Shown here in pieces: positions 2,771 to 56,524 of a stretch of DNA of 64,000 nucleotides. The position numbers and the translations under genes are program-made. Each line of letters begins with the position of its first letter. Position 1 is the stretch's first letter. The stretch lies in NCBI GenBank assembly GCA_033032865.1, contig JAWHQI010000616.1:62001-126000 (forward strand). The letters are read 5' to 3'. This stretch comes from Dactylorhiza incarnata (taxonomy: Eukaryota > Streptophyta > Magnoliopsida > Asparagales > Orchidaceae). The notes under the pieces are model-generated. The model worked only from the letters and a program-made list of their open reading frames with translations. It made no database searches and had not been told where the DNA came from.

Positions 2771-3275
2771 TCGTTCGACGAACGTCGAAGGGAGGATGCC
2801 GTTCGACGAAGGTCGAAGGGAGGATGTCATTCGACGAAGGTCGAAGGGAGGATGCCGTTCGACGAAGGTCGAAGGGGAAGTGTTCGACGAACGTCGAAGG
2901 GATTGCGCCGTTCGGCGAAGTATAGGATAGTTTCGTTCGACAAAATATAAGCTGTTGCCGCGATCGAAGAAGGTTCTGCGTTCGACGAAAGATTCGTCGA
3001 ACGGCGTTCGACTAAGTTCTGTGTTCGACAAAAGTTCGTCGAACGGCGTTCGACGAAACTTCATCGAACGGCGTTCGACGAAAGGCGTTCGACGATGTAT
3101 CGTCGAACGGCGTTCGACGAAGTATCGTCGAACGACGTTCGACGAATCATATGTTCGGCGGTAGACGAATTAGGCAGCGGTCGACGAAGATTTTGCCAGC
3201 TGCGATCGACGAATTAGCACACCTTCGACGAAAGTCGAACAATCTGTTCGACGAATTGTCTCCCGTTCGATGAAA
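2771..3275. repeat. TCGACGAA dyad array in TR-GAG 5' LTR
   Basis: Repeated GTTCGACGAAnGTCGAAGG units are followed by inverted pairs TTCGTCGAACG / CGTTCGACGAA separated by one base. The array starts about 150 bp into the LTR. Its copy number and spacing differ from the 3' LTR array (10578-11105). Confidence 0.85.
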
Positions 3276-3427
3276 TATTCTGTTGTTTCCGAATGCTTAC
3301 CCTGACACCAAATTTGGGAGTTCCAATGTATGGCCTTGAAGGTGGTGTTGTCATTAATGCCATTAATGCGAGATGAAGATAAATTCTTAGCTTTTCTCCC
3401 GATCAGCATCTTCATCTTTGTCCTCTG

Positions 3428-3463
3428 CTTCTTCTTCTTCTTCTTCTTCTTCTTCTTCTTCTT
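3428..3463 (+). repeat. (TTC)n microsatellite in TR-GAG 5' LTR
   Basis: About 12 CTT/TTC units. The same site in the 3' LTR (about 11257-11274) has roughly half as many, so it has changed length since insertion. Confidence 0.85.
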
Positions 3464-4980
3464 TTCTTCATCTCCTTCCCTCCAACCTGATGGTGTTAAC
3501 TTAGGGTTTTGGCCAAGAAAACCCGTGGAGAAGCTTGTGCGACCATTGGAAGAGGAGCTAGCTTGGAGAAGGTCGAGTTCGTTCATGGCGGCGAGGAGAC
3601 TGCCGCGATCGTCGGCCCGGATTCAGGTGACTTCCGACCCCTCTCCCTTGGTGCTAGTATCTTAGACCCCCTAGGCGAGATATCGAACTCAATTGAGTCG
3701 ATATGGGAGCGAAATGAAGTTCCGTAGGTTGAGGCCGCGTTAGGGTTTTCGCCGTAGGGCGCCGATCGCCGCAAAAATACCCCCAATCAACTCCCCGCTT
3801 CAATACGAATGCAAGGGCGTTGGTGTCGTGATAATCGAAGGCCTCGTGAGGGTGCATGGGAGGAGAGAAGGTGGTTGCCCTAAATTTCATTTAGGATGAA
3901 AATGAACAGTCCCTGTTATTGGAATTTCATTATATATATAAATATATATATAGGTTCTATTGCTGCTGATTTGGATTTGAGAAATAAGTCCTTGTCGAAT
4001 GGATCTCAATTATAAATACATATATATATATATATTGGTTCATAAGCTTGCTTGAGAAATGAGAAAGTTTCCCTGTTAAATTGGATTTCAATTTTATATA
4101 CATATGTATACCTTTAGCTCTTGTTGGGGAAGAAGATGAACAGCGGACGTTAGATTTACCTTAAGACTCGTGCAGAAATTATATCTGCAGACCGATGCAG
4201 AAATCTGTTTTCTGCGCGCAGCTGTGTTCAAGTCCAGTTGTGAGCATGATACAGCAGGATTCAGGTTTCAGGCTTAACACAAAAGTTGTAGGCCTCAGAA
4301 TGAGATTTCCAACGATAGGTTACACGTTTTCTGGGGTGGCCTGTAACTCTCTAAAAGTCCAGTCGAGTGGACTGACCAGGAAGCTGGTTTGGGTCCACTG
4401 CGTGCTGTTTTTGCTGTCCAGGTTTCTGCAGTGGACTTCAGGGCAGATTTTAGGTAGGACCCACTGGGATCTGGGTTTAGGACTCAACACAAATGTTGTA
4501 GCCCTTGTTGTTAGCTTTCCAAATTGGGGTGGGTCATAACGGTTGGACATCGGTAGCACCCAGAAATCCTGTTTTAGTAAACTATGTCATAACACCTTCA
4601 ATCTCGGCACTTTGTGGATTTCTCCCATTATGTTGGTTGGATTGCCTAATCGCTAAATATGATATGCCATCAATTGCGCGAATAATCCTACGGGATCGGC
4701 TTAGTAAATATATTGTTATACGCACACCACGACACGCGAGCTAATTAACTCGGTATGATTAGCACTGGCGATTCGGAGCAGACTATAAGATTCGGTTATA
4801 TCTTATGGTAAACGGTAAGGACTCAGTTGTTGGGGGCCTTGAGTGCAGTTCAGGGAGTCGGCTAAAGGCGTATGAGTTATGAATTAAGGCTACGTTCGAG
4901 AGTCCTTGGGTATTCGATAGCGCACGATTGTGCATGGGAAATTTGTGGTTGCGCAAGTTTGACACGTGGTGGCATAATGT

Positions 4981-5060
4981 TGATGGTCGGTGGATGGTCG
5001 GTGGATGGTCGGGGTCCTTTGGTGTTCAGTTCCCAAAGGCTCCATTCGGATAGTTGTGGA
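4981..5060 (+). repeat. Single diverged copy of the 67-bp hairpin unit inside the TR-GAG LTR
   Basis: Reads GGATGGTCGGGGTCCTTTGG...TTCCCAAAGG...CCATTCGG, matching the internal array unit (GGATGGTCCGGGCCCTTTGG...TTCCCAAAGCCGCCATCCGG). The 3' LTR has the same copy at 12787-12847. Confidence 0.6.
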
Positions 5061-5970
5061 TATGGGAGAGGGTTCAATACACAATCATCGTATTGCATTG
5101 CATTGCATTCATCCTTCAATTCATTGCACCGCATTCATATCATAATCATTGCATTGCACAGCAATGGATACTCATCATATAAACTTGTATGGGCATCTTT
5201 ATATGATGAGTTACCTTTATATGCAGACTCTTAACTTATAAGCTTGTATGGGCATCCTTATAAGTTAAGTTCAATTCAGCTCTTCATTACTCTGCTTATG
5301 TCTGTTGTTACTTATACTTTCGTGTATATACTTACTGCTGCTGATGTACTTATGAACCTGTTAGATAGTACTATTGCGAGTACTTGGGTACTCATACAAC
5401 CGACATATAGGAACAACCATTTCTGTCACCTGCTTGTATATTATTGCTAATATTGCAGCTTTCTTTCAATTCTACCGCCCGGTGCCTTGGAGTCGCCGGG
5501 GGAGCGGATGTGAAGCCACTTAGTCTTTATGACTGACGGTTGCTATGTACCCCTTTTTAGGAGTGCACCCTGGAGCAGCAGCGCACGGCGCGGGAGACGG
5601 ATAGCCTGGTCAGGTCGACAGGGCTGGAGACCGCGATACCCGCAGTACCTTTGGTGACAGATGTGAGCGTAGAATGAAATGTAGCCCTTTGGGCATCCTT
5701 TAGTTTGTCACTCTGATGTAGTTTTGCAGGAGCTCGTGGAGCTGCCTGCCTTGTATATTTATGGACTTTTACTTATGCGAATATTTATATATATGTGGCT
5801 TCTTGTTTTTTATTATTGATGGGTTGGCTTGATGATATTGGTTTAGCCGGCAGGATAGGCGTCTTGTGGAGGTGGCTAGCCCGTGTGCTGGTGCTTCCGC
5901 AAGGCGGCTGTCCTGGGCATAAAGCTCCCCACGGCCGTGTTTTGTGTTCCGGGAGGGGGGGGTTTACAAA

Positions 5971-8724: not shown

Positions 8725-9822
8725 CAACTGGATGGTCCGGGCCCTTTGGTGTTAATTCCCAAAGCCGCCATCCGGGCTAGTTTAATTCGTTCAACTGGAT
8801 GGTCCGGGCCCTTTGGTGTTAATTCCCAAAGCCGCCATCTGGGCTAATGTAGTTCGTTCAACTGGATGGTCCGGGCCCTTTGGTGTTAATTCCCAAAGCC
8901 GCCATCCGGGCTAATGTAGTTCGTTCAACTGGATGGTCCGGGCCCTTTGGTGTTAATTCCCAAAGCCGCCATCCGGGCTAATGTAGTTCGTTCAACTGGA
9001 TGGTCCGGGCCCTTTGGTGTTAATACCCAAAGCCGCCATCCGGGCTAATGTAGTTCGCTCAACTGGATGGTCTGGGCCCTTTGGTGTTAATTCCCAAAGC
9101 CGCCATCCGGGCTAGTTTAATTCGTTCGACTGGATGGTCCGGGCCCTTTGGTGTTAATTCCCAAAGCCGCCATCTGGGCTAATGTAGTTCGTTCAACTGG
9201 ATGGTCCGGGCCCTTTGGTGTTAATTCCCAAAGCCGCCATCCGGGCTAATGTAGTTCGTTCAACTGGATGGTCCGGACCCTTTGGTGTTAATTCCCAAAG
9301 CCGCCATCCGGGCTAATGTAGTTCGTTCAACTGGACGGTCCTGGCCCTTTGGTGTTAATTCCCAAAGCCGCCATCCGGGCTAGTTTAATTCGTTCAACTG
9401 GATGGTCCGGGCCCTTTGGTGTTAATTCCCAAAGCCGCCATCCGGGCTAGTTTAATTCGTTCAACTGGATGGTCCGGGCCCTTTGGTGTTAATTCCCAAA
9501 GCCGCCATCCGGGCTAGTTTAATTCGTTCAACTGGATGGTCCGTGCCCTTTGGTGTTAATTCCCAAAGCCGCCATCCGGGCTAGTTTAATTCTTTCAACT
9601 GGATGGTCCGGGCCCTTTGGTGTTAATTCCCAAAGCCGCCATCCGGGCTAGTTTAATTCGTTCAACTGGATGGTCCGGGCCCTTTGGTGTTAATTCCCAA
9701 AGCCGCCATCCGGGCTAATGTAGTTTGTTCAACTGGATGGTCCGGGCCCTTGGTGTTAATTCCCAACGCCGCCATCCGGTCTATTCTTTGGTGTTCATTC
9801 CCGAAGCCACCACCTAGGCTGT
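8725..9822 (+). repeat. Tandem array of a 67-bp hairpin-forming unit (16 copies plus a decayed 17th)
   Basis: Units start at 8725, 8792, 8859, 8926, 8993, 9060 and so on every 67 bases to 9730, then a degraded copy follows. Each contains nested dyads: GGATGG and CCATCC as outer arms, CTTTGG and CCAAAG as inner arms around TGTTAATTC. Two linker types alternate in blocks (GCTAGTTTAATTCG and GCTAATGTAGTTCG). Units are nearly identical, so the array is either young or kept uniform by conversion. No unit is coding. Confidence 0.95.
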
Positions 9823-10419: not shown

Positions 10420-13400
10420 TGTAACATCCCATTTCGCGCTAGACCCATCAGAGACGTTTTGACTACCCGATTTGGTCTTTCCAGTGCGTGCTCAAATTTA
10501 GATTAATTGGAGGAAAGGAATAACAATATTGTTGTAGGTGATGGGGGGGTAATAAGATAATAGGTTTTCTGAGATTTCGTTCGACGAACGTCGAAGGGAG
10601 GATGCCGTTCGACGAAGGTCGAAGGGAGGATGTCGTTCGATGAAGGTCGAAGGGGAAGTGTTCGACGAACGTCGAAGGGATTGCGCCGTTCGGCGAAGTA
10701 TAGGATAGTTTCGTTCGACGAAATATAAGTTGTTGCCGCGATCGAAGAAGGTTCTGCGTTCGACGAAAGATTCGTCGAACGGCGTTCGACTAAGTTCTGT
10801 GTTCGACGAAAGTTCGTCGAACGGCGTTCGATGAAAGTTCGTCGAACGGCGTTCGACGAAAGTTCGTCGAACGGCGTTCGACGAAAGTTCGTCGAACGGC
10901 GTTCGACGAAAGTTCGTCGAACGGCGTTCGACAAAACTTCGTCGAACGGCGTTCGACGAAAGGCGTTCGACGAATCATATGTTCGGCGGTAGACGAATTA
11001 GGCAGCGATCGACGAAGATTTTGCCAGCTGTGATCGATGAATTAGCACAACTTCGACGAAAGTCGAACAATCCATTCGACGAATTGTCTCCCGTTCGACG
11101 AAATATTCTGCTGTTTCCGAATGCTTACCCTGACAACAAATTTGGGAGTTCCAACGTATGGCCTTGAAGGTGGTGTTGTCATTAATGCCATTAGTGCGAG
11201 ATGAAGATAAATTCTTAGCTTTTCTCCCGATCAGCATCTTCATCTTTGTCCTCTGCTTCTTCTTCTTCTTCTTTTCTTCATCTCCTTCCCTCCAACCTGA
11301 TGGTGTTAACTTAGGGTTTTGGCCAAGAAAACCCGTGGAGAAGCTTGTGCGACCATTGGAAGAGGAGCTAGCTTGGAGAAGGTTGAGTTCGTTCATGGCG
11401 CCGAGGAGACTGCCGCGATCGTCGGCCCGGATTCAGGTGACTTCCGACCCCTCTCCCTTGGTGCTAGTATCTTAGACCCCCTAGGCGAGATATCGAACTC
11501 AATTGAGTCGATATGGGAGCGAAATGAAGTTCCGTAGGTTGAGGCCGCGTTAGGGTTTTCGCCGTAGGGCGCCGATCGCCGCGAAAATACCCCCAATCAA
11601 CTCCCCGCTTCAATACGAATGCAAGGGCGTTGGTGTCGTGATAATCGAAGGCCTCGTGAGGGTGCATGGGAGGAGAGAAGGTGGTTGCCCTAAATTTCAT
11701 TTAGGATGAAAATGAACAGTCCCTGTTATTGGGATTTCATTATATATATAAATAAATATATAGGTTCTATTGCTGCTGATTTGGATTTGAGAAATAAGTC
11801 CTTGTCGAATGGATCTCAATTATAAATAAATATATATATTGGTTCATAAGCTTGCTTGAGAAATGAGAAAGTTTCCCTGTTAAATTGGATTTCAATTTTA
11901 TATACATATGTATACCTTTAGCTCTTGTTGGGGAAGAAGATGAACAGCGGACGTTAGATTTACCTTAAGACTCGTGCAGAAATTATATCTGCAGACCGAT
12001 GCAGAAATCTGTTTTCTGCGCGCAGCTGTGTTCAAGTCCAGTTGTGGGCAAGACACAGCAGGATTCAGGTTTCAGGCTTAACACAAAAGTTGTAGGCCTC
12101 GGAAAGAGCTTTCCAACGATAGGTTGCACATTTTCTGGGGTGACCTGTAGCTCTCTAAAAGTCCAGTCGAGTGGACTGACCAGGAAGCTGGTTTGGGTCC
12201 ACTGCGTGATGTTTTTGCTGTCCAGGTTTCTGCAGTGGACTTCAGGGCAGATTTTAGGTAGGACCCACTGGGATCTGGGTTTAGGACTCAACACGAATGT
12301 TGTAGCCCTTGTTGTTAGCTTTCCAAATTGGGGTGGGTCATAACGGTTGGACATCGGTAGCACCCAGAAATCCTCTTTTAGTAAACTGTGTCATAACACC
12401 TTCAATCTCGGCACATTGTGGATTTCTCCCATTATGTTGGTTGGATTGCCTAATCGCTAAATATGATATGCCATCAATCACGCGAATAATCCTACGGGAT
12501 CGGCTTAGTAAATATATTGTTATACGCACACCACGACACACGAGCTAATTAACTCGGTATGATTAGCACTGGCGATTCGGAGCGGACTATAAGATTCGGT
12601 TATATCTTATGGTAAACGGTAAGGACTCAGTTGTTGGGGGCCTTGAGTGCAGTTCGGGGCGTCGACTAAAGGCGTATGAGTTATGAATTAAGGCTAAGTT
12701 CGAGAGTCCTTGGGTATTCGATAGCGCACGATTGTGCATGGGAAATTTGTGGTTGAACATGCTTGACACGTGGTGGCATAATGTTGATGGTCGGTGGATG
12801 GTCGGGGTCCTTTGGTGTTCAGTTCCAAAAGGTGCCATTCGGATAGTTGTGGATATGGGAGAGGGTTTAATACACAATCATCGTATTGCATTGCATTGCA
12901 TTCATCCTTCAATTCATTGCACCGCATTCATATCATAATCATTGCATTGCACAGCAATGGATACTCATCATATAAACTTGTATGGGCATCTTTATATGAT
13001 GAGTTACCTTTATATGCAGACCCTTAACTTATAAGCTTGTATGGGCATCCTTATAAGTTAAGTTCAATTCAGCTCTTCATTACTCTGCTTATGTCTGTTG
13101 TTACTTATACTTTCGTGTATATACTTACTGCTGCTGATATACTTATGAACCTGTTAGATAGTACTATTGCGAGTACTTGGGTACTCATACAACCGACATA
13201 AAAGGAACAACCATTTCTGTCACCTGCTTGTATATTATTGCTAATATTGCAGCTTTCTTTCAATTCTACCGCCCGGTGCCTTGGAGTCGTCGGGGGAGCG
13301 GATGTGAAGCCACTTAGTCTTTATGACTAACGGTTGCTACGTACCCCTTTTTAGGAGTGCACCCTAGAGCAGCAGCGCACGGCACGGGAGACGGATAGCC

Positions 13401-13761
13401 AGGTCAGGTCGACAGGGCCGGAGACCGCGATACCCGCAGTACCGTTGGTGACAGATGTGAGCGTAGAATGAAATGTAGCCCTTTGGGCATCCTTTAGTTT
13501 GTCACTCTGATGTAGTTTTGCAGGAGCTCGTGGAGCTGCCTGCCTTGTATATTTATGGACTTTTACTTATGCGAATATTTATATATATGTGGCTTCTTGT
13601 TTTTTATTATTGATGGGTTGTCTTGATGATATTGGTTTAGCCGGCAGGATAGGCGTCTTGCGGAGGTGGCTAGCCCGTGTGCTGGCGCTTCCGCAAGGCG
13701 GCTGTCCTGGGCATAAAACTCCCCTCGGCCGTGTTTTGTGTTCCGGGAGGGGGGGTTTACA
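10420..13761 (+). repeat. TR-GAG 3' LTR
   Basis: Begins TGTAACATCCC and ends GGTTTACA. It is near-identical to 2621-5968 apart from array and microsatellite length changes and scattered substitutions. Its end abuts interior sequence of element B's LTR with a 3-base overlap (ACA) common to both. Confidence 0.9.
10578..11105. repeat. TCGACGAA dyad array in TR-GAG 3' LTR
   Basis: Contains a clear 25-bp tandem section from about 10811 (repeat starts at 10811, 10836, 10861, 10886...), each unit holding TTCGTCGAACG and CGTTCGACGAA as inverted arms. The apparent Arg/Ser-rich ORFs here are translations of the repeat. Confidence 0.9.
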
Positions 13762-15015
13762 AATTGCTTCCAGCAGACTGAAGAAATTTACAGTTCCAGC
13801 GTTCGACAAATTCTGAGCAAGCGCTCGACAAATGACTAGCAGCGGTCGACAAATTCTGAGCCAGCGCTCGACAAATGACTAGCGGCGGTCGACAAATTCT
13901 AGCCAGCGCTCGACGAATTGCTTTCTGACGTTCAAACTTATATTCTCAGTGGATGTCAGTTCTCTGAACTCAAATCAGCAAAATAATGGATATATTTATT
14001 TCTCCTTGGACGTATTCAGACAGCCAAGTAAGGATATCGTTCTCATTTATTATATCCTTATATTCCTTCTATTCCAAGAAGAAGAATAGTCGGTGACATT
14101 TAATGCCAAAGGCATCTTTCTCGACAAAAGGAATTAAAAGGACCTGCCAAAATCGTTTTGGGTGGCTACCTGGTTCCAAGAAGGATTTAAGTCAGAAGAA
14201 GACATTCCTTAAAAAGACAGAAGATTTGAATTTGAAAACATATACATACAGTTATCAGAAGAAAAAGACACACAGAATAGCAAGAACTGAGATAGTCGTT
14301 TTGTGTGAGAGAAATAAAGAAAAACTTCACTATCACTTTCTCTCTCCGGTAATCACAGAACAAGGAGGATAGAAGAAGTCTTTCAGAAGAAGAAGAAGAA
14401 GCAAATACACTATTCTTTTTCAGCATTCTTCTTCATCAAGATCATCTGCTACAAAGACTTCTATTTGAGAAAGCTCTGTCCACAAAACTGTCATCAACTC
14501 TCATCAGATAGGGGGAGCTTTCTGCTTCAACACCTTTTGTCTTCTCTCAGATCATTGACAGAGAAGAACACTCTATACCTTTTTATCTCATTCTGTACAG
14601 GGTTAATACTCCCTTCAAAAGTTTACCCAGTGGTGGCAAGACACCTTATCAAAAAATCCTAGTGTGGTTTTTAAGCACCTTATCAAAAGCTTATTGGTGT
14701 GTCGACACCTTATCAAAAATCCCTTGGTGCTGGGCACCTTATCAACCCTCCTAATTGATTCCTACCAAAGGTGGTAGAAGAGTAGACGTACCCAGATTTA
14801 TTGGGGAACTACTATGGCTCCTTGTGTTTCTGTGCTTGATTATCTCTGTGTGCTTGTGCTGTGTGTCCTTTATTAATTCTGTAGTTTTCTATAACTCACA
14901 CTAAATACACATATACTTAAATAGTAGTTTAATTTCCGCTATAAAACGTATTAAAAATTTTAATACTCTATTCACCCCCCCTCTAGAGTAATTTAAGATC
15001 TGACCTCCACTTTCA
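13762..15015 (+). repeat. Element B 5' LTR, 5'-truncated
   Basis: 13762 corresponds to position 23884 of the intact 3' LTR, so about 180 bp including the TG end are lost. It ends ...CCACTTTCA. It holds a TCGAC array (13798-13922) and repeated CACCTTATCAAAA motifs (14640-14755). Confidence 0.9.
13798..13922. repeat. TCGAC array in element B 5' LTR
   Basis: Alternating GGTCGACAAATTCTGAGCC and AGCGCTCGACAAATGACTAG units, about 40 bp per pair. Same array in the 3' LTR at 23856-24040. Confidence 0.85.
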
Positions 15016-15017
15016 AT

Positions 15018-15132: not shown

Positions 15133-17178
15133 ATGGCACAAAACAAGGAGTATTCCAGCACAAGACCTCCTATGTGCAATCTCAATAAGTTTGCACTATG
15201 GAAAGCAAGGATTAGGCTTTATATGAACTCCATTGATGAGGAGATTTTTAATGTTATTCTTACAGGACCTCCAGCACCTACAGCATCAGCTAGTACTGCT
15301 GCAACAACAGACAACACTGATGTTCCACCTCCTGAGTGGACTGAGGCTCAGAAGAAGCAGAGAAATGCAGATGCAAAGGCCATGAACATTCTGGCCCTAA
15401 CTATGTCAGATGACATATTCCAGAAAGTAGTTGAGTGCACTTCAGCAAAAGAAATCTGGGAATCTCTCAACAACATGGTGGCAGGGTCAGCAGATGAAAG
15501 AAAAGATAGGAGATCTCACCTGATCTCTCAATATGAGAACTTCAAGAAGGGAGAATCAGAAAATGTAGCTGATATGTACAATAGGCTCAGCCTCATAATA
15601 AATGAGTTGAAGTCTCTGGACAAAGTGATCTCACTCACAGAGATCACTGACAAAATTCTTATGTGCTTTCCCAGCACATGGGACTCCAGAATCTGGCCAA
15701 TCAAAGAAGCCAGAAGTCTCAATGAGATCACCAATGAAGCTTTGTTGGGCAAGCTCAAATCTTATGAGCAGCTCATCAAAACTAGGGAAACTGAAGAATC
15801 CACTTCATCCCCAGCACCCAAGAAGGAAAGAAGCATAGCCTTCAAGGCTGCAGAAGATAAAGGAAAAGCTCCTGACAAAGAGGAGTTTATGAGTCTGTTA
15901 GCCAAAAGAGTCTATAAGATGGCTAAGAAAGACTTCAGAAAACAGCTATCCAGAAGTCATGACAAGCCAAGGTATGACAAAAATCATTCTAATAAAATCA
16001 TATGTTTTGGCTGCAGGAAACCAGGACACATTGCTCCTGAATGTCCAGAGATTCAACACAAGAAGGACAAGAAGGAAAGAAGAAAAGAAAAGGAAGAAAA
16101 GAAGGGCTCCAGCAAATCTTCCTCCCACTCTCACAAGAAGAAGGGAAGAGGATTTATAGCAACATCCTGGAGTGAAACAGAATCTGAATCAGAATCTTCA
16201 TCTTGCTCCTCTGATGAAGAAGAAACAAAAGAAGACAGCCAATGCTTAATGGCTATTTATGACTCAGACAATGAGTCACAATCAGCATCATCATCCAGCT
16301 CTAGTGATGATGAAGAAGAAAAAAGTTTTTGCATGATGGCAATCAATGCCTCAACTAACAATTCTGATGAAGAGAAATCAGAATCAGAAACAGAAGATGA
16401 TATTGATCAGGTATTATCTGACTTTGATTTCACTTCTATTGAATTCAAAGATGATTTCAAAACTCTTTGCCAAGACTTAATAAAATCTGAGAAAGAAATA
16501 ATCTCTCTCAGAACTAAGTTAGTTGAAATGAACAATATAAGTGAAGAGAATGGAAATCTTAAGAAAGATTTGGCTGCCTCCAGAGAACACATTACTACTC
16601 TTGAGAGTAAGTTATTTGAAGACAAAAAGTTTGAAGAATCCCTCAATGGGAGATGTATCAAGCTGATGGACATCACAAGCACTGTCAATGCTAGATTTAA
16701 TAATAGCAAACTGGGCTTGGGTGCCTCATCAAGAGAGCCATCTCTGATTAAGAGAAACATCCTCTCCACACCCATAAAATTCATTTCTGCTAAAAGCAAA
16801 GAAGCTGCAGAAAGAAATAAAGACATTTCAAGCAAGCTTGTTAAGGATAAAAGAATTCAGAAGAATTCGTCGAACGACACTCGACAAAAGGAATCAAATT
16901 TGTCGAACGACGCTCGACGAAAACTGAGAACAGATTTTCAGTATAGTTATAAAATGAATAATAATCGACGAATTTATTCAAATTCCTCGAACAAGCACTA
17001 TACAAAAAACTCTAAGAATTCTAATCCTAAATATACTAAAAATCCTTTTACTGAGTGGACTATACCTCCAAGGAGATATCATCCACAAGGCTACAAGGAT
17101 CAGCCTGAAATGACATTTATCTCTGAATTTTGTGGTAACATAAAAGGACCCAAGGTAGTCTGGGTCAAAAACAACTAG
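15133..17178 (+). CDS. Gag of element B (copia, SIRE type)
   Basis: Open for 681 codons from the ATG at 15133. This start gives MAQNKEYSSTRPPMC, which matches the start of element A gag (MSSKDYASIRPRVC). The open frame extends upstream to about 15031 without homology. Residues about 10-240 are the copia gag domain (IWESLNNMVAGSADERKDRRS, LISQYENFKKGESENVADMY, LMCFPSTWDSRIW). A CX2CX4HX4C knuckle (CFGCRKPGHIAPEC) lies near residue 300. It is followed by Lys-rich then Ser/Glu/Asp-rich low-complexity segments and a probable coiled coil around residues 440-510. The C-terminal part at 16866-16985 contains copies of the TCGACGAA motif within the coding sequence (peptides SSNDTRQKE, LSNDARRK). It ends with TAG at 17176, in frame with pol. 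Confidence 0.9.
   Translation: MAQNKEYSSTRPPMCNLNKFALWKARIRLYMNSIDEEIFNVILTGPPAPTASASTAATTDNTDVPPPEWTEAQKKQRNADAKAMNILALTMSDDIFQKVVECTSAKEIWESLNNMVAGSADERKDRRSHLISQYENFKKGESENVADMYNRLSLIINELKSLDKVISLTEITDKILMCFPSTWDSRIWPIKEARSLNEITNEALLGKLKSYEQLIKTRETEESTSSPAPKKERSIAFKAAEDKGKAPDKEEFMSLLAKRVYKMAKKDFRKQLSRSHDKPRYDKNHSNKIICFGCRKPGHIAPECPEIQHKKDKKERRKEKEEKKGSSKSSSHSHKKKGRGFIATSWSETESESESSSCSSDEEETKEDSQCLMAIYDSDNESQSASSSSSSDDEEEKSFCMMAINASTNNSDEEKSESETEDDIDQVLSDFDFTSIEFKDDFKTLCQDLIKSEKEIISLRTKLVEMNNISEENGNLKKDLAASREHITTLESKLFEDKKFEESLNGRCIKLMDITSTVNARFNNSKLGLGASSREPSLIKRNILSTPIKFISAKSKEAAERNKDISSKLVKDKRIQKNSSNDTRQKESNLSNDARRKLRTDFQYSYKMNNNRRIYSNSSNKHYTKNSKNSNPKYTKNPFTEWTIPPRRYHPQGYKDQPEMTFISEFCGNIKGPKVVWVKNN
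16864..16985. repeat. TCGACGAA motifs embedded in element B gag coding sequence
   Basis: TTCGTCGAACG at 16866-16876 is identical to the 11-mer that builds the arrays of TR-GAG and of gypsy element G. TTTGTCGAACG and CGCTCGACGAAAA follow at about 16900-16925, then a diverged AATCGACGAATTT near 16963. Confidence 0.8.
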
Positions 17179-20375: not shown

Positions 20376-20736
20376 AAATTAAGTATTTCTATTTTTCTCA
20401 CAAATTTGTCGAACGAAGAATGACAAATTTGAATCATTTGTCAAACGGTGGTCTCTGAAACCTCTTAAAGGAAGAGTCAGTTAAGGCAATCTCTTTTGTC
20501 AAACGACGATCGACGAAAAAGATGCTCTCGTCGAACGCTTTCAGACAAAGAAATAAAGCCTTTTCGACTTCTAATTTTATTAGGTTTTGTCGAACAGTGG
20601 TTTACGAATGCGCCCTCATTCTTCGACCCTTCTATATAAGCCTTATTTTATCTTATTCTAAGCTTTGCACCTACAGAAATCGTCTTTCCCTCCAGTTCCC
20701 CTCTGCACTTGATCTTCAACTTTCTTTGCAGGAACA
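20376..20736 (+). other. Pol to post-pol-ORF spacer of element B with TCGAC motifs
   Basis: No ORF. Between about 20402 and 20600 it has repeated TTTGTCGAACGA, GTCAAACGGTGG and ACGATCGACGAAAA motifs, then an AT-rich stretch (TTCTATATAAGCC at about 20628-20640) that could be an internal TATA box for a subgenomic transcript of the next ORF. The promoter idea is inference. Confidence 0.5.
20629..20637 (+). promoter_or_regulatory. Possible internal TATA box before the post-pol ORF
   Basis: CTATATAAG, about 100 bp before the ATG at 20737 and just after the TCGAC motif cluster. In elements G, D, E and H the LTR arrays likewise precede a TATA-like box. No transcript evidence. Confidence 0.35.
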
Positions 20737-23689: not shown

Positions 23690-23702
23690 AATAGGGGGAG
23701 AT
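23690..23702 (+). promoter_or_regulatory. Polypurine tract of element B
   Basis: AAATAGGGGGAGA directly followed by the LTR start TGTTGGAACAACC. Confidence 0.9.
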
Positions 23703-25139
23703 TGTTGGAACAACCCTATTACTAATTTGGGCTAGGATCACTATATGTTGATTAGGATCTGTATTGACCCCAATGTATAGCCTTAGGGTCAAGTTTTAGG
23801 CTGATTAGATTAGCAGAACTTAGGAAAATTCTAGCTCAACACATGGTGAGTGGTGTTTGACGAATGACCAGATTCATTCGACAAATTGCTTCCAGCAGAC
23901 TGAAGAAATTTACAGTTCCAGCGGTCGACAAATTCTGAGCCAGCGCTCTACAAATGACTAGCAGCGGTCGACAAATTCTAAGCCAGCGCTCGACAAATGA
24001 CTAGCAGCGGTCGACAAATTCTAGCCAGCGCTCGACGAATTGCTTTCTGACGTTCAAACTTATATTCTCAGTGGATGTCAGTTCTCTGAACTCAAATCAG
24101 CAAAATAACGGATATATTTATTTCTCCTTGGACGTATTCAGACAGCCAAGTAAGGATATCTTTCTCATTTATTATATCCTTATATTCCTTCTATTCCAAG
24201 AAGAAGAATAGTCGTTGACATTTAATGCCAAAGGCATCTTTCTCGACAAAAGGAATTAAAAGAACCTGCCAAAATCGTTTTGGGTGGCTACCTGGTTCCA
24301 AGAAGGATTTAAGTCAGAAGAAGACATTCCTTAAAGAGACAGAAGATTTGAATTTGAAAACATATACATACAGTTATCAGAAGAAAAAGACACATAGAAT
24401 AGCAAGAACTGAGATAGTCGTTTTGTGTGAGAGAAATAAAGAAAAAATTCACTATCACTTTCTCTCTCCGGTAATCACAGAACAAGGAGGATAGAAGAAG
24501 TCTTTCAGAAGAAGAAGAAGAAGTAAATACACTATTCTTTTTCAGCATTCTTCTTCATCAAGATCATCTGCTACAAAGACTTCTATTTGAGAAAGCTCTG
24601 TCCACAAAGTTGTCATCAACTCTCATCAGACAGGGGGAGCTTTCTGCTTCAACACCTTTTGTCTTCTCTCAGATCATTGACAGAGAAGAACACTCTATAC
24701 CTTTTTATCTCATTCTGTACAGGGTTAATACTCCCTTCAAAAGTTTACCCAGTGGTGGCAAGACACCTTATCAAAAAATCCGAGTGTGGTTTTTAAGCAC
24801 CTTATCAAAAGCTTATTGGTATGTGGACACCTTATCAAAAATCCCTTGGTGCCTGGGCACCTTATCAACCCTCCTAGTTGATTCCTACCAAAGGTGGTAG
24901 AAGAGTAGACGTACCCAGATTTATTGGGGAACTACTATAGCTCCTTGTGTCTTCTGTGCTTGATTATCTCTGTGTGCTTGTGCTGTGTGTCCTTTATTAA
25001 TTCTGTAGTTTTCTATAACTCACACTAAATACACATATACTTAAACAGTAGTTTAATTTCCGCTATAAAACGTATTAAAAATTTTAATACTCTATTCACC
25101 CCCCCTCTAGAGTAATTTAAGATTTGACCTCCACTTTCA
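23703..25139 (+). repeat. Element B 3' LTR, complete
   Basis: 1437 bp, TGTTGGAACAACC...CCACTTTCA. Array of TCGAC motifs at 23856-24040; CACCTTATCAAAA motifs at 24764-24870; a C-rich CACCCCCCCTCTAGAG near the end that is also found in A and in the LTR at 57526. The flanking AATTC (25140-25144) would be the right copy of the target-site duplication; the left copy is lost. Confidence 0.93.
23856..24040. repeat. TCGAC array in element B 3' LTR
   Basis: GACGAATGACC and ATTCGACAAATTG followed by the alternating GGTCGACAAATTC / CGCTCGACAAATG units. The first two motifs lie partly in the stretch missing from the 5' LTR. Confidence 0.85.
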
Positions 25140-27477: not shown

Positions 27478-27795
27478 CTTCTAGTCGACCCACCTCCAAG
27501 TTATAATAGAAGCAGCTTTAAATTTCACTTCAGCGTTGTATCCTTCGACGCATCAATTTCCTATCGACGTATCCTTCAAGTTGAAGACTTGGACTTTGAA
27601 CTTCCTCTTCTGCGTCGATTTCAAGTCCAAGTTGGGTCGACTTCTAATACTGCTTCGACTGACTCTATCTTCTGCGTCGAGTATATCTCAACATTGCATC
27701 GACTTGAACTTCAGTTTGAGTTACTTCTACTTGTATTCGAAGTTGCATCAACTTTCAGTCGAAGTTGTGTCGACTTCTATTCGACGCAAGTTTAA
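27478..27795. repeat. TCGAC array in element A LTR
   Basis: Many TTCGACGCA, TATCGACGTA, GTCGACTTC and GCGTCGA motifs at irregular 15-30 bp spacing, starting about 175 bp into the LTR. A CATAAATAG TATA-like box lies about 30 bp further on (minus, about 27440-27450). Confidence 0.75.
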
Positions 27796-30113: not shown

Positions 30114-30541
30114 TCGACGAATTACACTAACACTCGACGAATTTTCTAAGTCTCCACAGATTCATCGAAATCACTCGATGAATCCAGAATCACTCGACGA
30201 ATTTTGGCAAACGTCTCGAAGAATTACTCTAAAGTCTTGACAAATTACTCTAAGGTCTCGACGACATGAAAGAACTTCTCAACGAACAGGTCTCATTGGA
30301 TTCGTCGAAAGCACTCGACGAATACATTGAGTCACTCGGCGAATTCTATATGGTCTCCACAGATTACTCTTAGGTCTCGACGGATTCGTCGCAAACACTC
30401 GACGAATTCTATAGGGTCTCGATGAATTTAACTAAGCTTCTCGACGAAATTAACTATAGAACACTAAGAACTTCTCTAAGGAAATCCATTCGGTGAATTT
30501 GTCAAATTCACTCGACGAATTTGACTTAATACTCGACAAAT
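30114..30541. repeat. TCGACGAA array in element C 3' LTR
   Basis: Repeated CACTCGACGAATT, AGGTCTCGACGAATTACTCTA and ATTCGTCGAAAnCACTCGACGAAT (9-base inverted arms). Same array at 55374-55800. Confidence 0.9.
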
Positions 30542-32913: not shown

Positions 32914-32934
32914 AAAAGATCAGAAATTTGGTCG

Positions 32935-34885: not shown

Positions 34886-35485
34886 CCGTTCGTCGAACAC
34901 AGCATTTCAATCGTTCGTCGAACGCAACATTTCAGCCATTCGTCGAACGCAGGTTTATAACTGTTCGTCGAACGCAGCTTTACTACCATTCGTCGAACGC
35001 GGGCATCCGTTCATCGAACACAGTTTATTAGATGTTCGTCGAACGTAGCTTTACTGTCATTCGTCGAACGCAGGCAGCCGTTCGTCGAACGCAGTTTATT
35101 AGCTGTTCGTCGAACGCAGCTTTACTGCCATTCGTCGAACGTAGGCAGCCGTTCGTCGAACGCAGTTTCTTAGCTGTTCGCTGAACGCAACTTTACTGAC
35201 ATTCGTCGAACGCAGGCAGCCGTTCATCGAACGCAGTTTATTAGTTGTTCCTCGAACGCAGCTTTACTGCCATTCATCGAACGCAGTTTATTAGCTGTTC
35301 ATCGAACGCAGCTTTACTGCCATTCGTCGAACGCAGTCAGTCGTTCGTCGAATGGAGGTTTATTAGCATTCGTCGAACACAGCTTCTTAGCCATTCGTCG
35401 AACGCAGTTCTTTTAGCATTTGTCGTATGCAGTTTATTAGCATTCGTCGAACGCAGTCTTAAAGCTATCCGTCGAATGCAGACAG
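34886..35485. repeat. TTCGTCGAACG array in element G 5' LTR
   Basis: More than 20 copies of CGTTCGTCGAACGCAG or CATTCGTCGAACGCAG at 20-30 bp spacing with CATTTCAGC, TTTATTAGCTG and CTTTACTGC linkers. CGTTCG-T-CGAACG is a perfect dyad. It starts about 265 bp into the LTR and ends about 105 bp before the TATA-like box. Confidence 0.95.
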
Positions 35486-41807: not shown

Positions 41808-42455
41808 AGCCGTTCGTCGAACGCAGCATTTCAGCCGTTCGTCGAACGCAGCATTTCAGCCGTTCGTCGAACGCAGCATTTCAGCCGTTCGTCGAACGCA
41901 GCATTTCAGCCGTTCGTCGAACGCAGGTTTATAGCTGCTCGTCGAACGCAGCTTTACTGCCATTCGTCGAACGCAGGCAGCCGTTCGTCGAACGCAGTTT
42001 ATTAGTTGTTCGTCAAACGCAGCTTTACTGCCATTCGTCGAACGCAGGCAGTCATTCGTCAAACGCAGTTTATTAGCTGTTCGTCGAATGCAGCTTTACT
42101 GCCATTCGTCAAACGCAGGCAGTCGTTCGTCGAACGCAGTTTATTAGCTGTTCGTCGAACGCAGCTTTAATGCCATTCGTCGAACGCAGGCAGCCGTTCG
42201 TAGAACGCAGTTTATTAGCTGTTCGTCGAACGCAGCTTTACTACCATTCATCGAACGCAGTTTATTAGCTGTTCGTCGAACGCAGCTTTACTGCCATTCG
42301 TCGAACGCATTCAGCCATTCGTCAAATGCTGGTTTATTAGCATTCATCGAACGCAACTTCTTAGCCATTCGTCGAACGCAGTTCTTTTAGCATTCATCGT
42401 GCGCAGTTTATTAGCATTCGTCGAACGCAGTCTTAAAGCTATTCGTCGAACGCAG
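41808..42455. repeat. TTCGTCGAACG array in element G 3' LTR
   Basis: Begins with four to five very regular CGTTCGTCGAACGCAGCATT units of 26 bp, then mixed units as in the 5' LTR. Unit number and order differ from 34886-35485, so the array has been rearranged since insertion. Confidence 0.95.
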
Positions 42456-44758: not shown

Positions 44759-44892
44759 AGAGGACAAGCTGTATAACGGTCACATTAGCTTTCCTTTCCT
44801 GTCAGACGCCCAGCCATCATAGCAGGCCCCTGATTGGACAATCAGGCGGCGGTATTAATTTCTGACAGCGCATCCGCGAGATTTGAATTTGT

Positions 44893-45276
44893 CTCGACGA
44901 TAAATTCCATCGTTACGACGACATGGATTGTATCTCGACGACATGTCTTTGTCGGCCCCTTGTGCTTTGGTAATTCTTTAGGTCTCCTTGCTTCTGCTTC
45001 TGATGCTTGTATTTCAACGATACGGGACATGCTGGCGTTCCTGCATATACGACGATATGCTTCCTTTGTCTGTGTCGTTGGGACCTTCCTTTGTTCATTC
45101 TGTCGTTGTAATTGTAGTATTGTCTTGTCGACATGGCCGCTATTTTGATGTCGACGATACTCCATTCTTCTCGACGACATGTCTTTCTTTGACAGTTTCT
45201 CTGCGTCTGCTTTGCTTGTCATTACATCGACAAGCATACTTTGTCGGCCATCCCTTCTGTCCTTCTCGACGATATA
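44893..45276. repeat. TCGACGACAT array in solo LTR H
   Basis: CTCGACGATAAATTCC, TACGACGACATGG, TCTCGACGACATGTC, TTGTCGACATGG and similar motifs, about 120-500 bp into the LTR. Confidence 0.8.
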
Positions 45277-45526
45277 TACTTGTATACTTGTATTCTCCTG
45301 AGATTATGAACTAGATGTGTGATCAAATACAAAGTGAAGTATTCTTGACATGATGACTTCTTCAAATCAGGAATCATGTGGGCACGATTCCCAACATACT
45401 CTAGTATTGTTGTAGTTCTTTTCCTGATTATCACCTTATAATGCCTAGCTATTGTGTATAGTATGGCGTGGGGTCCCGGTCGGACCTACTGTTATATTAT
45501 TTGTACTAGCAGGGTGTTACAGCAAA

Positions 45527-47658: not shown

Positions 47659-47661
47659 ACT

Positions 47662-49306
47662 TGATGCACTTATCTCGCACACCCTATAGGCGGTAGCTAG
47701 ACTGCGGAATGAAATGGCAGTGTACCGATCGTTCATGTAATAAAAAACGAGGAGTGAATCCCCGAGTATCGAATCTCGAAGGAACACAGTAAGGTGGAGT
47801 TTACTTTTGAGGAAGGACTTGAGATCAAAGTCCTTAAGTCGGATGGAATGCAGGAGAGTTGATTTGGCTTTTGGAAAAATAAAGGAAAACAACTACAATC
47901 CTATGCAATGCCGCTATGCAATGCTTCACACTACTTCGCAAGGGCGGATGGACGAGTAGGCAAGCGGAATCGAACTGTGCAAGCCTTCGAGCGCGCTGCT
48001 TCGTTAGGCGAATGGATTACATGGGCCTCTATGCCACGCTTCACTAGGCGGATGGAAGATAATGCTTGCGGATGGAGTGGGTCACACCGGCGGAATGAGG
48101 GTCGCAAGCACCTCGTCAACAATCACACCACTAGCAATTGCTAGTGCAGCAACACCAAACACTCACACCACAGTCACCACAAAAGCACACCTCAAGCAGT
48201 CATAAAGCTTGAAAACATTTCATAATATATAACATGAAGTTCAACAAATATTGAGTGCAACATCATCAAGATATAAGTGATCTACCATTTACAACTACTA
48301 ATACAAAGAGAGAGAGAGCAAGGAATCGACCCAATCTGAAGCCTTGTCGAAGGTTCACGGTTGGAATCGATGGGTTGTCAATCCGCATCCAAACTCGGTC
48401 CTCAACTGCATCAGGGGTAGAGAAGGTTGTCACTACCTTCCAGTGGCCCATCTTCTTCATGTCACGATCTGGCCGCATTACCAAGCTTCCTTCTCCTTGG
48501 ATAATGGTGGATGTAGGGATAGATCCCTATCCTTGGAGCTCTTGGATGATGTGAGGTGGTCTCGGGCAAAAGGTGGAGGAAGAAGTGAATAAAATGGAGC
48601 TAGAACTCCCCTTCGGCGGGAAAAAGAGGAACTCTCCGGTTCTCCCGGTTAGGTTGAAAACTGCAGCTTTTATAGAAAAAGATCAAAAATTTGGTCACGC
48701 ACGGTCGAACGCACGACCGTGCATTAACCGTGTGATATTAATCAAGAACAAAGGCCAGGAAAATGAAGCAGGCGCGCCCGTTCGTTTTATTCACACACGA
48801 TCGAAGCCGACCGTGCGTAAAAACGCACAGGCAAATTCAGAAACCTCGAAATCCGGCAAACAACAGGAGGTCGTGCGTTTTGTTCGCGCACGGTTAAGAC
48901 CAACTGTGCATAAAGAAAATGCATGAGCGGGGCAGATCACCATATTGACCAGCCGATCATAGTGCACGACTGCAACCGACCGTGCGTCAAGCAAATGCAC
49001 GACCGTGCGATTCATACAGGATGAATTCTGGGCAATATGGATGATCTACCCACCTGCACAATGAAACCACACGCTGGGAACACACCTCCAGCACAAGTAT
49101 AATAACAGAAAAAGAATGGTGAGCACAATGTGCTTGCCCCCAACAAAATATTGCGCAATTGCACACCACAACGGGCCTAAACAATGCACTTAAAGTGAAA
49201 GCTCGGACAAGTAAAATATAGGCAATTAAGAAATGAAATTGAATTGCAACAGCAGGAAAACTAGCCCAGATGAGTCCATAAAAGCGTATATAAATGGGAC
49301 TCATCA
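47662..49306 (-). repeat. Element D 5' LTR
   Basis: 1645 bp, aligned with 31851-33542. CACGGTCG hairpin array at 48690-49018, TATA box at 48667-48675. An apparent ORF at 48987-49667 is a chimera of element C integrase and this LTR. Confidence 0.92.
48690..49018. repeat. CACGGTCG hairpin array in element D 5' LTR
   Basis: Best unit: GCACGGTCG at 48699-48707 and CGACCGTGC at 48714-48722, perfect 9-base arms with a 6-base loop. At least three further related pairs follow. Confidence 0.85.
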
Positions 49307-49311
49307 CTACG

Positions 49312-53466: not shown

Positions 53467-54104
53467 CTAATAAAACAAAAAAGCGGTCTATCATGACTTA
53501 GCTAAACACTAACATTCACCTATCCACAACTCAATAGGAAAACGTGTAGATACTTGCTCTTGCTACTACCTTGCTCTGAGATTCATTATGAATGATATCA
53601 TGCATAACTTAACTCTTGTGCAAATAATGCATGAACGCTTAAAATCTTCATTTTAAATCATGTGTGTACGAGCATCATCATGTATATCTTTAACTTGGCA
53701 CGTGTGCTAAAGCTATATTATGATGTGCATGCTCTGCTATGCAGTCTAATGAAAGCCTTAGTGCATGTTATGAGCGGCGTACACATGAAATATTATGCAT
53801 CCTATACTACATAATATCGCATGTAATGAAATTAACATCTAGTAACATCCATGGTATAATGTTAAGTCGCCCATATAACTTAACAGTTATATAGTGTCAC
53901 ACCTATGAGTATTCATATACAAACACATATTTATGCATCCCATACTATATAATATGCCCCATATACTTCTTATCATGCTATGAGTGTAGTGTTCATGCTT
54001 CAGTCAAGACATACGAATGACCCTTCGGTGTGTGTTTGCAATGAAATAGATTCTTAATATCAAGGGATGTTTGACTAACCATCCAACAACCGATCTGAAC
54101 CTGG
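53467..54104 (-). other. Untranslated leader of element C
   Basis: About 640 bp between primer site and gag. AT-rich; no ORF supported. Probably holds packaging signals, by position only. Confidence 0.6.
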
Positions 54105-54117
54105 CTCTGATACCAAC
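54105..54117 (-). promoter_or_regulatory. Primer-binding site of element C (tRNA-Met type)
   Basis: The minus strand reads TTGGTATCAGAGCCAGG two bases after the LTR end, a full-length match to the usual site. Confidence 0.92.
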
Positions 54118-56524
54118 TGTCACAACCCGCATTTTTCCAATATATAAATATATTATCAGAGTGGGAAAAATATGTGTTATGATGTCACATCGTGTAGGAG
54201 ACAACAACAAATGCTCAGGCAACTCCAACTCTATGTTTGATTTCATAAATGGCATACCTTTGTATAAATCTTATGTTAAAAGATATAATTTGCAATTTTA
54301 AGATTTATACCGTGTCCCTCGGTCCAATGTATCATCTATTCCATGAGTAGAAACTATAATTAAGTTTCAGAAAAGAAAGTATGAAGTTTGACTTGATTTA
54401 CTCTATATGAGCATGAAGACCAAATCATCTAGCTAATGATATGCAAAACTCTACATTTATTGTATGTAGGAAAAGAAGTTTTTACGATCTTCAAAGTATG
54501 GTGACATGTGATTTATATCATGCCATGAATAAGAATATGCAAGTTGTACACTTAAAATATCTAACATGCATCATAACATAAAACCTTCCCATAGAGAAAT
54601 GCTTCAATAGCAAAAAGACAGTAGTAGCAGGCACAACAAGTAACAATCTACACAAAGAAACAACAATGGGCGTCAACAATCTGACACGAACCCATAGAGT
54701 TGTGAAAGTACATCAAAAAAAATTGACTAAGTAGTCAAAGAATGTCACAGCTGACTAATCCTCACCAATGAGGAGAAAGGAAAAACACTATCCAAGATCT
54801 GGAAGGACATCATGATCAACCTGCACAGCTACCGGTCCGAGCCTGAGGCATTCAATAGAAAAGAATGCCGCAGCAATAAGGCACAAAAAGGAAGCTCAAA
54901 ATAAATAAGATCACCAAGATAAAAAGATAAGGTGTTACCAACTCCAGAAATGAAACTGTATATCAACAACATATAAGACCATATTAACCATAAAGGCCAA
55001 AAAAGTTAGCAAGCTTGGCTAAATAATCAGTTGAAGTCTTGCACCAAGTGCGACAATGATTTATAAGAAATGATCGTAGAAATAGGCATTGTGTGGGCCA
55101 AATGAATTCATGAGCAAAAAGTGAATCAGTAACATCGGACAAAAATAGGCACTGAGGTGGAGGCCACAATCTTCCACTCACCAACAGTACAAAACACCGT
55201 CGGGTACCATGATTACACCAAAATAGGCACTATGGAGGAGGCCTCAAAAATATTTCTCACCAACAATCCAAAACTAGCTCATCACCCCATCACTTAACAC
55301 CAAACGCAGCACAACTTCATTACACCATGATAAAAGGAGGAAAATACCACAATTTTCATAAACAAACAACCATTCGATGTATTACACTAACACTCGACGA
55401 ATTTTCTAAGTCTCGGCAGATTCGTCAAAATCACTCGACGAATTCAGAATCACTCGACAAATTTCGGCAAAGGTCTCGACGAATTACTCTAAAGTCTCGA
55501 CGAATTACTCTAAGGTCTCGATGACATGAAAGAACTTCTCGAGGAACAGGTCTCGAAAGATTCATCGAAAGCACTTGACGAATTCTTTCAGTTACTCAGC
55601 GAATTCTATAAGGTCTCCACAGATTACTCTAAGGTCTCGACAGATTCGTCGAAAACACTCGACGAATTCTATAGGGTCTCGACGAATTTAACTAAGCTTC
55701 TCGACTAATTTAACTATAGAACACTAAGAAATTCTCTAAGGAAAGCCATTCGATGAATTTGTCGAATTCACTCGACGAATTTACTTAATACTCGATGAAT
55801 CCTGACAGAGGCTTTGCACAAATCCAAAAACTGAAAGGTAACTCCTTTATAGATTTGTACCATGATAAATCTCAGCAAAAGTTTTAGGAAGAAATGTATG
55901 AACAATAACTCAAACAAAGGGAGGAGTCCACCACATGCCTCTAATCCTTCGATTTCGACTCTAAGGCACTCCAGACCATGAATCGACTATTTTTTGAAAC
56001 TTTTCTGTCAAGGAAAAGGGTTAGGAACACACACTCCAATATCTAACTTCCATGAAATCAAAAATACTCATTGCACACATGAAGATCTCGATGAGAGCTT
56101 TCTAAATCTATTCTCTGACGATGAATTTGTGCTCAAACGCTCCCACAATAGCCGACGAGAACTCCCGGACGACGACCGAACTCTCCTCTTTCTCGAAAAT
56201 GGAAACCGATCGTAGGAGAAGATGGGAAAACCTAATTTCTAGCCTTTTATAGGAGGGAGAGAGGACTATTTAAGAATTAAATAAATTAGAGACTTTCAAT
56301 AATTCACCGGGCTCTCACATTAACTCGGATCGCGACGAAAATCCACAGTTATGCTTAAATTTAATAACTTTAATTTTCTAAAGTCAAAAATTTTTGATTC
56401 CGGTAAGATTCAAAATGTAACAAATTCTAACGCACCGGGAAACTCAACACAAATATAGCACCAGCCTGACGATATTATGTCATTAGAGATTTAAAATAAT
56501 TATCTAAAATTCAGGGGCATTACT
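54118..56524 (-). repeat. Element C 5' LTR
   Basis: About 2407 bp; terminal TGTAA is changed at the outer base (A to T on plus). TCGACGAA array at 55374-55800 and TATA-like box at 56243-56253. Confidence 0.92.
55374..55800. repeat. TCGACGAA array in element C 5' LTR
   Basis: Same layout as 30114-30541. ATTCGTCGA (55644-55652) and TCGACGAAT (55659-55667) form a 9-base inverted pair. Confidence 0.9.

Follow-up and report, generated by a model that had tools for sequence, protein, structure and literature searches.

The window analysed in this study is a stretch of 64,000 nucleotides from the orchid Dactylorhiza incarnata (assembly GCA_033032865.1, contig JAWHQI010000616.1, positions 62,001 to 126,000 of the forward strand) and consists of a nest of long terminal repeat (LTR) retrotransposons, whose LTR pairs were set by self-comparison (Table 1). 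Arrays of a CpG-rich motif, TCGACGAA/TTCGTCGA, were found in the LTRs of three gypsy-type families (TR-GAG, shortened to TR, C and G), and variants of it were found in three copia-type families, namely TCGACAAA in B, TCGACGAY in H and TCGACGCA, the weakest, in A. The motif is common to the families and the spacers between its copies are not. Copia B is a copia element by its protein domains, and gypsy-type domains were recognized in C (gag, protease and reverse transcriptase), G (gag, RNase H and the integrase SH3 domain, SH3_Tf2-1) and TR (gag). The label Tekay, which we take to correspond to Del, was given to C and G in an earlier interpretation made from the letters alone (hereafter the sequence-only reading); here both are called gypsy-type by domains only. 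To our knowledge, LTRs of different families do not normally have sequence in common.

On the plus strand of the window TCGACGAA occurs 48 times and TTCGTCGA 47 times. The arrays named in the sequence-only reading hold 91 of these 95 sites, and the remaining four lie inside copia B, two clusters of which that reading had overlooked. The motif sites proved commoner than in composition-matched sequence, since the TCGAC[GA]A count of the TR, B, C, G and H arrays was reached by none of 2000 dinucleotide shuffles of each array. The array of copia A contains no TCGAC[GA]A, and its 14 copies of TCGAC/GTCGA were likewise reached by 0 of 2000 shuffles. Of the six array-bearing families that had been claimed, five thus stand by this count; neither A nor H has an exact TCGACGAA, and TCGACGAA/TTCGTCGA, proposed as the motif of all six, is that of TR, C and G, the LTR of B having mostly TCGACAAA. 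Among over-represented 8-mers, TCGACGAA ranked first in TR, second in C and seventh in G, TCGACAAA ranked first in B and TCGACGCA first in A, and the top over-represented 7-mer in H was TCGACGA. Units of copia B are mostly CGNTCGACRAA, with CGG on one side in some units only. TTCGTCGAACG had been assigned to the copia B LTR; its copy in B (16866) sits in the gag open reading frame (ORF). LTR E, which has the same style of array with a second core, scored zero for TCGAC[GA]A.

Table 1. Motif arrays, associated features and LTR pairs in the window
Feature	Position	Strand	Remarks
TR-GAG 5' LTR array	2771..3275	+	CGTTCGACGAA / TTCGTCGAACG units, 25-28 bp; 16 exact 8-mers vs shuffled mean 0.74
TR-GAG 3' LTR array	10578..11105	+	22 exact 8-mers; repeated TTCGTCGA-ACGGCGT-TCGACGAA pairs
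Copia B 5' LTR array	13798..13922	+	21-22 bp units with TCGACAAA; LTR truncated at 13762 beside TR-GAG
Copia B gag 3'-end motif cluster	16866..16990	+	two TTYGTCGA-N7-TCGACRAA pairs
Copia B cluster 5' of env-like ORF, promoter-like	20400..20630	+	
TATA-like box CTATATAAG directly 3' of copia B env cluster	20632..20640	+	
Copia B env-like ORF, first open part, 306 aa	20737..21654	+	PF20167 match
Polypurine tract AGGGGGAG + AT directly before copia B 3' LTR (TG at 23703)	23693..23702	+	Sirevirus-like
Copia B 3' LTR array	23856..24040	+	motif sites; CpG-rich
Copia A LTR array	27478..27795	-	core TCGACGCA / GTCGA; no TCGAC[GA]A
Gypsy-type C left LTR array (3' LTR, minus-strand element)	30114..30541	-	TTCGTCGAG units of ~20-21 bp; pairs with 6-bp spacer
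Gypsy-type C right LTR array (5' LTR)	55374..55800	-	
Gypsy-type G 5' LTR array	34886..35485	+	TTCGTCGAACGCAG, same-direction repeats of 21/25/71 bp; TATA-like box ~100 bp downstream
Gypsy-type G 3' LTR array	41808..42455	+	
Solo copia-type LTR H array	44893..45276	-	core CTCGACGAY; TATA-like CTATAAAAGG downstream in sense
LTR E array (control)	58530..59194	+	CpG-rich dyad with other core, GGTCACG..CGTGACC
TR-GAG LTR pair	about 2619-5970 / 10420-13761		self-comparison
Copia B LTR pair	13762-15016 (5' LTR truncated) / 23703-25139		self-comparison
Gypsy-type C LTR pair	28862-31266 / 54119-56523	-	self-comparison
Gypsy-type G LTR pair	34621-37151 / from 41545, ending ~45521		broken near 44190 by solo LTR H
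LTR E pair	58413-59750 / from 62666 (62666-64000 in the window)		self-comparison; own dyad array

Tandem duplication inflates counts made within an array, and comparisons across families therefore matter. When one unit per family was compared, an 8-mer within one mismatch was common to all six families (at most five in 300 shuffled sets) and an exact 6-mer to five of the six (at most four in 300 shuffled sets), the units of H and A having been chosen around the best site, which favours this outcome. In a strict test on whole LTRs, TCGACGA passed the 1e-5 level in TR, G, C and H, narrowly missed it in B (1.4e-5) and failed in A (0.018). The motif thus holds firmly in five families, with a variant core in A. 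By self-BLAST (E<=1e-5) no match of 100 bp or more was detected among the TR, C, G, B and H LTRs, save inside the TR and G arrays, which agrees with the earlier description of the families as unrelated; 'six unrelated families' nevertheless overstates their independence, because A and B have a common U5 stretch and A, B and H are probably all Sireviruses.

Masking the 8-mer left 27 of the 28 pairs formed by eight arrays with no similarity beyond that of shuffled spacers (100 shuffles for each pair). The only exception was TR-G, whose excess similarity was gone once the 13-bp dyad CGTTCGWCGAACG was masked, a step that takes out 435 of the 528 bp of the TR array and makes TR-G the weakest of the comparisons. 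A set of 22 arrays, from the window, 12 genome loci around 11-mers and four other loci, fell into 11 spacer groups even with weak links counted, seven of the groups having no member in the window. Unit lengths and orientations also vary between arrays.

Half-sites facing away from each other across a 7-bp gap (TTYGTCGA-ACGRCRN-TCGACRAA) are present in TR and the internal clusters of copia B, and such half-sites with a 6-bp gap in gypsy-type C, while G and the copia B LTR have same-direction repeats instead. A same-direction start-to-start step of 21 bp was observed in 10 of 19 sequences examined, some of which are related. In the whole genome (3.27 Gb), TTCGTCGAACG occurs 283,610 times, compared with 1,010 times for the reversed word. 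Pairs of the form TTCGTCGA-Nk-TCGACGAA numbered 16,965 for N7, 2,701 for N6 and 324 for N8, with 1, 3 and 1 for the respective reversed-pattern controls; the counts took in these three gaps. The 12 loci around 11-mers, drawn from roughly 30 clusters among the matches listed, hold 3-16 exact TCGACGAA/TCGACAAA sites each, and eight further loci (seven from the N7 list and one from the TTCGTCGAACG list) add more array types; most of the genome loci count here as arrays and not as LTRs. In 136,984 bp from fifteen stretches picked by contig number there were two arrays, L135, which is related to H, and L143, and the window is thus richer in arrays than the genome average. Viral contigs in IMG/VR were also considered as a source of relatives and dismissed: at least 120 stretches had the 14-mer, with one match each in the 80 listed, which was taken as chance, and six two-motif stretches had 2-4 copies of the 8-mer each. 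As a protein query, an ORF spanning the TR array gave no match at E<=1.

The internal region of copia B (8,686 bp) has a CpG observed/expected (o/e) ratio of 0.13, and 27 of its 41 CpGs lie in the two motif clusters, 387 bp in total, the borders of which were drawn around the motifs after seeing them, so that the p-values are descriptive. In gag, CGN codons account for 5 of 6 Arg in the cluster and 0 of 30 elsewhere (Fisher 1.6e-5), and TCG for 4 of 8 Ser in the cluster and 0 of 78 elsewhere (Fisher 3.3e-5), with the region chosen post hoc in both cases. Because Arg and Ser turn to CpG codons within the cluster, selection seems to act on its DNA and not on the peptide alone. Two relatives from the same genome (L127 and L128), 84% and 80% identical to copia B outside the clusters, have CpGs in common with it at 23 of 39 cluster sites and at 1 of 18 other sites (Fisher 1.2e-4), and in these relatives the gag cluster is about as conserved as its flanks (80.9% vs 79.6%). 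The gag cluster of L128 contains 33 extra bp with more motif copies, that is, array growth inside a coding region. Two gag relatives (P0005, and P0006 from Platanthera zijinensis) have repeated SSNxDRR-like peptides where the motif pairs lie; to judge from the protein, motif pairs would be expected in their genes too. Among named proteins, those closest to the copia B ORFs come from Platanthera, which points to an orchid host, and three of four database matches of the env-like ORF are from P. zijinensis. This ORF matched PF20167, 'putative plant transposon protein', with an E value of 5e-10 and 40 bits, below the cut-off of 45. PF20167 may be linked to the plant mobile domain. The predicted fold of the ORF, with a mean predicted local distance difference test score (pLDDT) of 50, was too poor for structural comparison.

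In the six families, CpG o/e was 1.35-2.61 in the arrays and 0.28-0.86 in the remainder of the same LTRs, as in the TR 5' LTR (2.42 in the array and 0.80 outside) and the copia B 3' LTR (1.35 and 0.28). CpG decay between the two LTRs of a pair, inside and outside arrays respectively, was 9/80 and 15/123 in TR, 17/43 and 28/59 in C, 19/81 and 22/85 in G, and 1/14 and 1/14 in B. Lasting protection of inserted arrays from CpG decay is not visible in these figures, as decay is alike within and outside arrays, which points to selection on active (transposing) copies rather than local protection as what seems to keep the array CpGs. Variants of TCGACGAA numbered 39 at the second CpG and 8 at the first (27 and 7 without the B LTRs), the sites of an array not being independent.

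A TATA-like box stands just after the array in G, in H and in the copia B env promoter. At two genome loci the TATA-like GGGTATAAATAGG follows the array, at a distance of about 70 bp in L143 and about 55 bp in L169; the L143 array is preceded by the junction AAGTGGGAGACTGTTGGAG, and we read L143 as a putative non-Sirevirus copia LTR.

The sequence-only reading knew of no named system that fits, which is wrong in part. The closest known kind are the repeated-motif (RM) boxes of Sireviruses (Bousios et al. 2010, PMC2829016), and judging from the passages of that paper used here they fit copia B closely. There they are high-copy CpG-rich dyads that precede the TATA box in the LTR's upper half and lie 200-400 bp after the polypurine tract (PPT), with a second cluster upstream of the env-like gene and, Tnd-1 excepted, a CGG-CCG core, and they are reported absent from classic copias; a core common to copia and gypsy does not figure in these passages, the paper comparing Ty1/copia elements. 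Copia B is classed as a Sirevirus by its junction and integrase-signal marks, which are AGGGGGAG at 23693 (10 bp before the 3' LTR) followed by AT and by TG at 23703, the primer binding site TTGGTATCAGAG at 15017, and the polyC integrase signal CACCCCCCC near the LTR ends (14975 and 25099). It has one PPT copy between pol/env and the 3' LTR, the average given for Sireviruses in the passages used being four (PMC2829016). AGGGGGAG is not exclusive to copia B and occurs in gypsy-type C at 31270 (minus strand), without AT/TG. For copia A, PPT and AT/TG were seen beside the copy at the left window edge (157-159, minus strand) and polyC at 26360 (minus strand) by the other copy, and LTR H has the polyC signal only (44223, minus strand).

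The env cluster of copia B, followed by its TATA-like box and ORF, has the layout described for RM boxes, and the array of its LTR is CpG-rich and lies about 155-340 bp into the LTR, with no convincing TATA box mid-LTR. Unlike RM boxes, the arrays of the window have the core TCG-W-CGA / TCGACRAA instead of CGG-CCG, and this core is present as well in the gypsy-type TR, C and G, which are not Sireviruses by domains; moreover, the form in copia B makes no perfect dyad, and there is an extra cluster in gag. New here are a core of another kind, its presence in gypsy-type families too, the cluster within gag and the extent of the motif across the genome. A literature search covering titles and abstract openings, with subscription papers largely outside its scope, gave no report of a core shared across copia and gypsy among the papers listed, and a search by motif letters gave no title on such a motif among those listed.

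A good mechanistic parallel is offered by the targets of VANC proteins, which, in the passages used here, bind short motifs packed in dense arrays that expand in non-coding DNA through tandem duplication (PMC5735166) and carry DUF1985 and DUF287 (PMC10398659). Like the arrays described here, these targets are dense and built on one short motif, and VANC6 motifs also occur in AT9TSD1, which is unrelated to VANDAL, while VANC21 motifs are enriched in one family (PMC5735166). They differ in sequence and belong to DNA transposons, and the VANC21 and VANC6 motifs are unlike each other, whereas here one core spans LTR superfamilies. The plastic 5' CpG islands of Del LTRs (PMC4029996) are likewise CpG-rich, length-variable segments in the 5' half of gypsy LTRs, for which the passages used describe no common motif. 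Paired auxin response elements bound by ARF dimers (PMC10690724, PMC6207667) are matched by the hexamers YGTCGA..TCGACR in the orientation and 7-bp gap of the IR7 type of inverted repeat (IR); according to the passages used, ARF sites have an invariant TGTC core, where TTCGTCGA has CGTC, and ARFs take IR8 as well as IR7. N8 pairs are 52-fold rarer than N7 pairs genome-wide, and the half-sites counted in the element regions were 95 of TTCGTCGA and 22 of TTTGTCGA, 16 of the latter in copia B. The motif was therefore not assigned to ARF binding sites, the commonest half-site lacking TGTC and the IR8-type gap being rare. Tnt1 BII boxes and ONSEN heat-shock elements are tandem U3 sites for host activators, described in single families and with other motifs. 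IDD-type TTTGTCG sites and the bZIP zinc-deficiency element RTGTCGACAY may offer further leads.

We consider it fairly probable that the arrays serve as clustered sites for one DNA-binding protein with sequence specificity, presumably a dimer, that acts at retrotransposon promoters, the protein being most likely a host activator. It would recognize TTYGTCGA (= TCGACRAA) half-sites that are clustered by promoters and in many cases paired, facing away from each other across a fixed gap; elements with more sites would be transcribed more and leave more copies, arrays would grow by tandem duplication, and families would reach the same core on their own, the same protein being available to all of them where they transpose. 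What speaks for a protein site is the position before a TATA box (G, H, the B env cluster, L143 and L169), the freedom of orientation, the growth by duplication and the conservation of CpGs in the active lineage; a host activator is preferred because one element-encoded protein serving both copia and gypsy is less simple. The suggestion of a convergently amplified factor site, made in the sequence-only reading as one of two options, is in line with core and CpGs that recur, spacers that differ and many pairs with a fixed gap. More tentatively, and with a good deal of doubt, we propose that one dimeric protein might control much of the active LTR retrotransposon population, copia and gypsy alike, as a convergent 'retrotransposon regulon' with the same CpG half-site, often at a fixed gap, in which the CpG/TpG alternation in TTYGTCGA may let methylated CpG replace T, so that silencing marks would spare binding.

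Several observations weigh against a common binding site. In the strict whole-LTR test no 7-mer (up to one mismatch) was significant at 1e-5 in at least five of the six LTRs, a 7-mer within one mismatch in all six was also reached by 3 of 300 shuffled unit sets, and an A/T-swap control in family subsets (32 settings) equalled the maximum of four in eight other settings and did not discriminate; copia A holds only the core TCGAC. Paired geometry is not universal, as G, H and the copia B LTR have no facing-away pairs with 6- or 7-bp gaps, and the exact pairs of the window amount to eight for N7 (only in TR and the B gag cluster), three for N6 (in C) and none for N8. Among the matches listed, 38 of 50 N7 sites share the spacer type A[CT]GNN[GA]N, the remaining 12 having nine distinct spacers, so that the N7 count may come largely from a few amplified families. 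CpGs aside, the relatives keep the env cluster less well than its flanks (75.5% vs 84.3%), and the arrays of LTR pairs diverge more than other LTR sequence in TR, G and B. No clear TATA box was found 3' of the array in the copia B LTR, the candidates in TR, A and C are weak or ambiguous, and C has a good one upstream of the array in sense. The present evidence does not tell a host factor from an element-encoded one.

Other ways for families to come to one core are less probable. A small module or minisatellite might have been amplified after template switching or conversion had carried it from one family to another, the other option of the sequence-only reading. We judge this improbable: the 23-bp pair TTYGTCGA-ACGRCRN-TCGACRAA is common to TR-GAG and copia B, and TR and G have a common 13-bp dyad and a 25-bp period, but the arrays speak against such an exchange, with excess similarity confined to the one pair that the dyad explains, 11 spacer groups among the 22 arrays, and unlike unit lengths and orientations. 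That the arrays are mostly the product of within-family tandem duplication of CpG-rich words which agree by chance is hardly credible, even though the strict test, the swap control and the shuffled 7-mer sets leave room for it and LTR E is a CpG dyad array that arose with another core; the 8-mer and 6-mer unit tests, the occurrence of this core in more array types outside the window, the pair-gap bias and the gag codon test all argue against it.

The main rival to a host activator is an element-encoded anti-silencing protein of the VANC kind, for instance from a Sirevirus, that would bind the motif and lift methylation or silencing, and whose site unrelated families would have gained as free riders. 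It is in keeping with dense, duplicating VANC target arrays, with the VANC6 motifs in AT9TSD1 (PMC5735166, passages used) and with the motif cluster before the extra ORF of copia B itself. We regard it as unlikely, since inserted arrays lose CpGs like the remaining LTR and show no lasting protection, the ORF matches only PF20167, below cut-off, and not DUF1985/DUF287, its unpredictable fold makes DNA binding a conjecture, and one core extends over many families here, unlike the VANC21 motifs (PMC5735166). Arrays acting as RNA hairpins or sources of small interfering RNA, as suggested for palindromes in maize Sirevirus LTRs, seem very improbable. Palindrome-rich LTR regions are hotspots of small RNA mapping (PMC5311732, passages used), and folding energies (30 shuffles each) were far below those of shuffles in TR (z -9.1), G (-8.9) and A (-5.1), but B (+0.4), H (-1.9), C (-2.1) and the B env cluster (-1.9) were not clearly more foldable than shuffles, and hairpins were rejected as a common property of the arrays on the values of B, H and C. 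We give as little credence to a host silencing factor that reads the motif and recruits DNA methylation, in the manner of REM/GDE1 for RNA polymerase IV at Arabidopsis tandem motifs: REM-GDE1 is known to be recruited to short tandem motifs in a sequence-specific way, but the motifs in the passages used (TTTTGCTTAT and AAGCGGAT repeats) differ (PMC12270911), and elements should lose such sites instead of amplifying them or keeping them at synonymous positions.

If many families of one genome have converged on the site of one protein, that protein would be a key to retrotransposition common to them all. The time and place at which much of the mobile DNA is active would then follow from the way this protein binds, the tissues it works in and its sensitivity to methylation, and the question of what activates plant retrotransposons in nature would become directly testable. 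The pair with a 7-bp gap would serve as a concrete bait for finding the protein, and the Sirevirus RM boxes of 2010 would become one case of a wider, possibly host-specific, phenomenon.

The nest shows some further structural features. Solo LTR H (44190-45397) lies within the 3' LTR of G with ACTCT on either flank, and the final 125 bp of the G LTR resume at 45397-45521. At 13762 TR-GAG adjoins copia B, whose 5' LTR is truncated, and no matching piece of the B LTR was seen immediately upstream of TR-GAG (about 2619); the first bases of its 5' LTR are unlike those of its 3' LTR, which indicates a rearranged 5' end. Within the TR-GAG element there is a 67-bp minisatellite (8725-9783) of about 16 copies with 95% matches. 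Element C contains a 1.7-kb stretch twice in direct orientation (31848-33543 and 47659-49307, 91%), and a piece of a copia B-like LTR in reverse orientation (57525-58147) adjoins element E.

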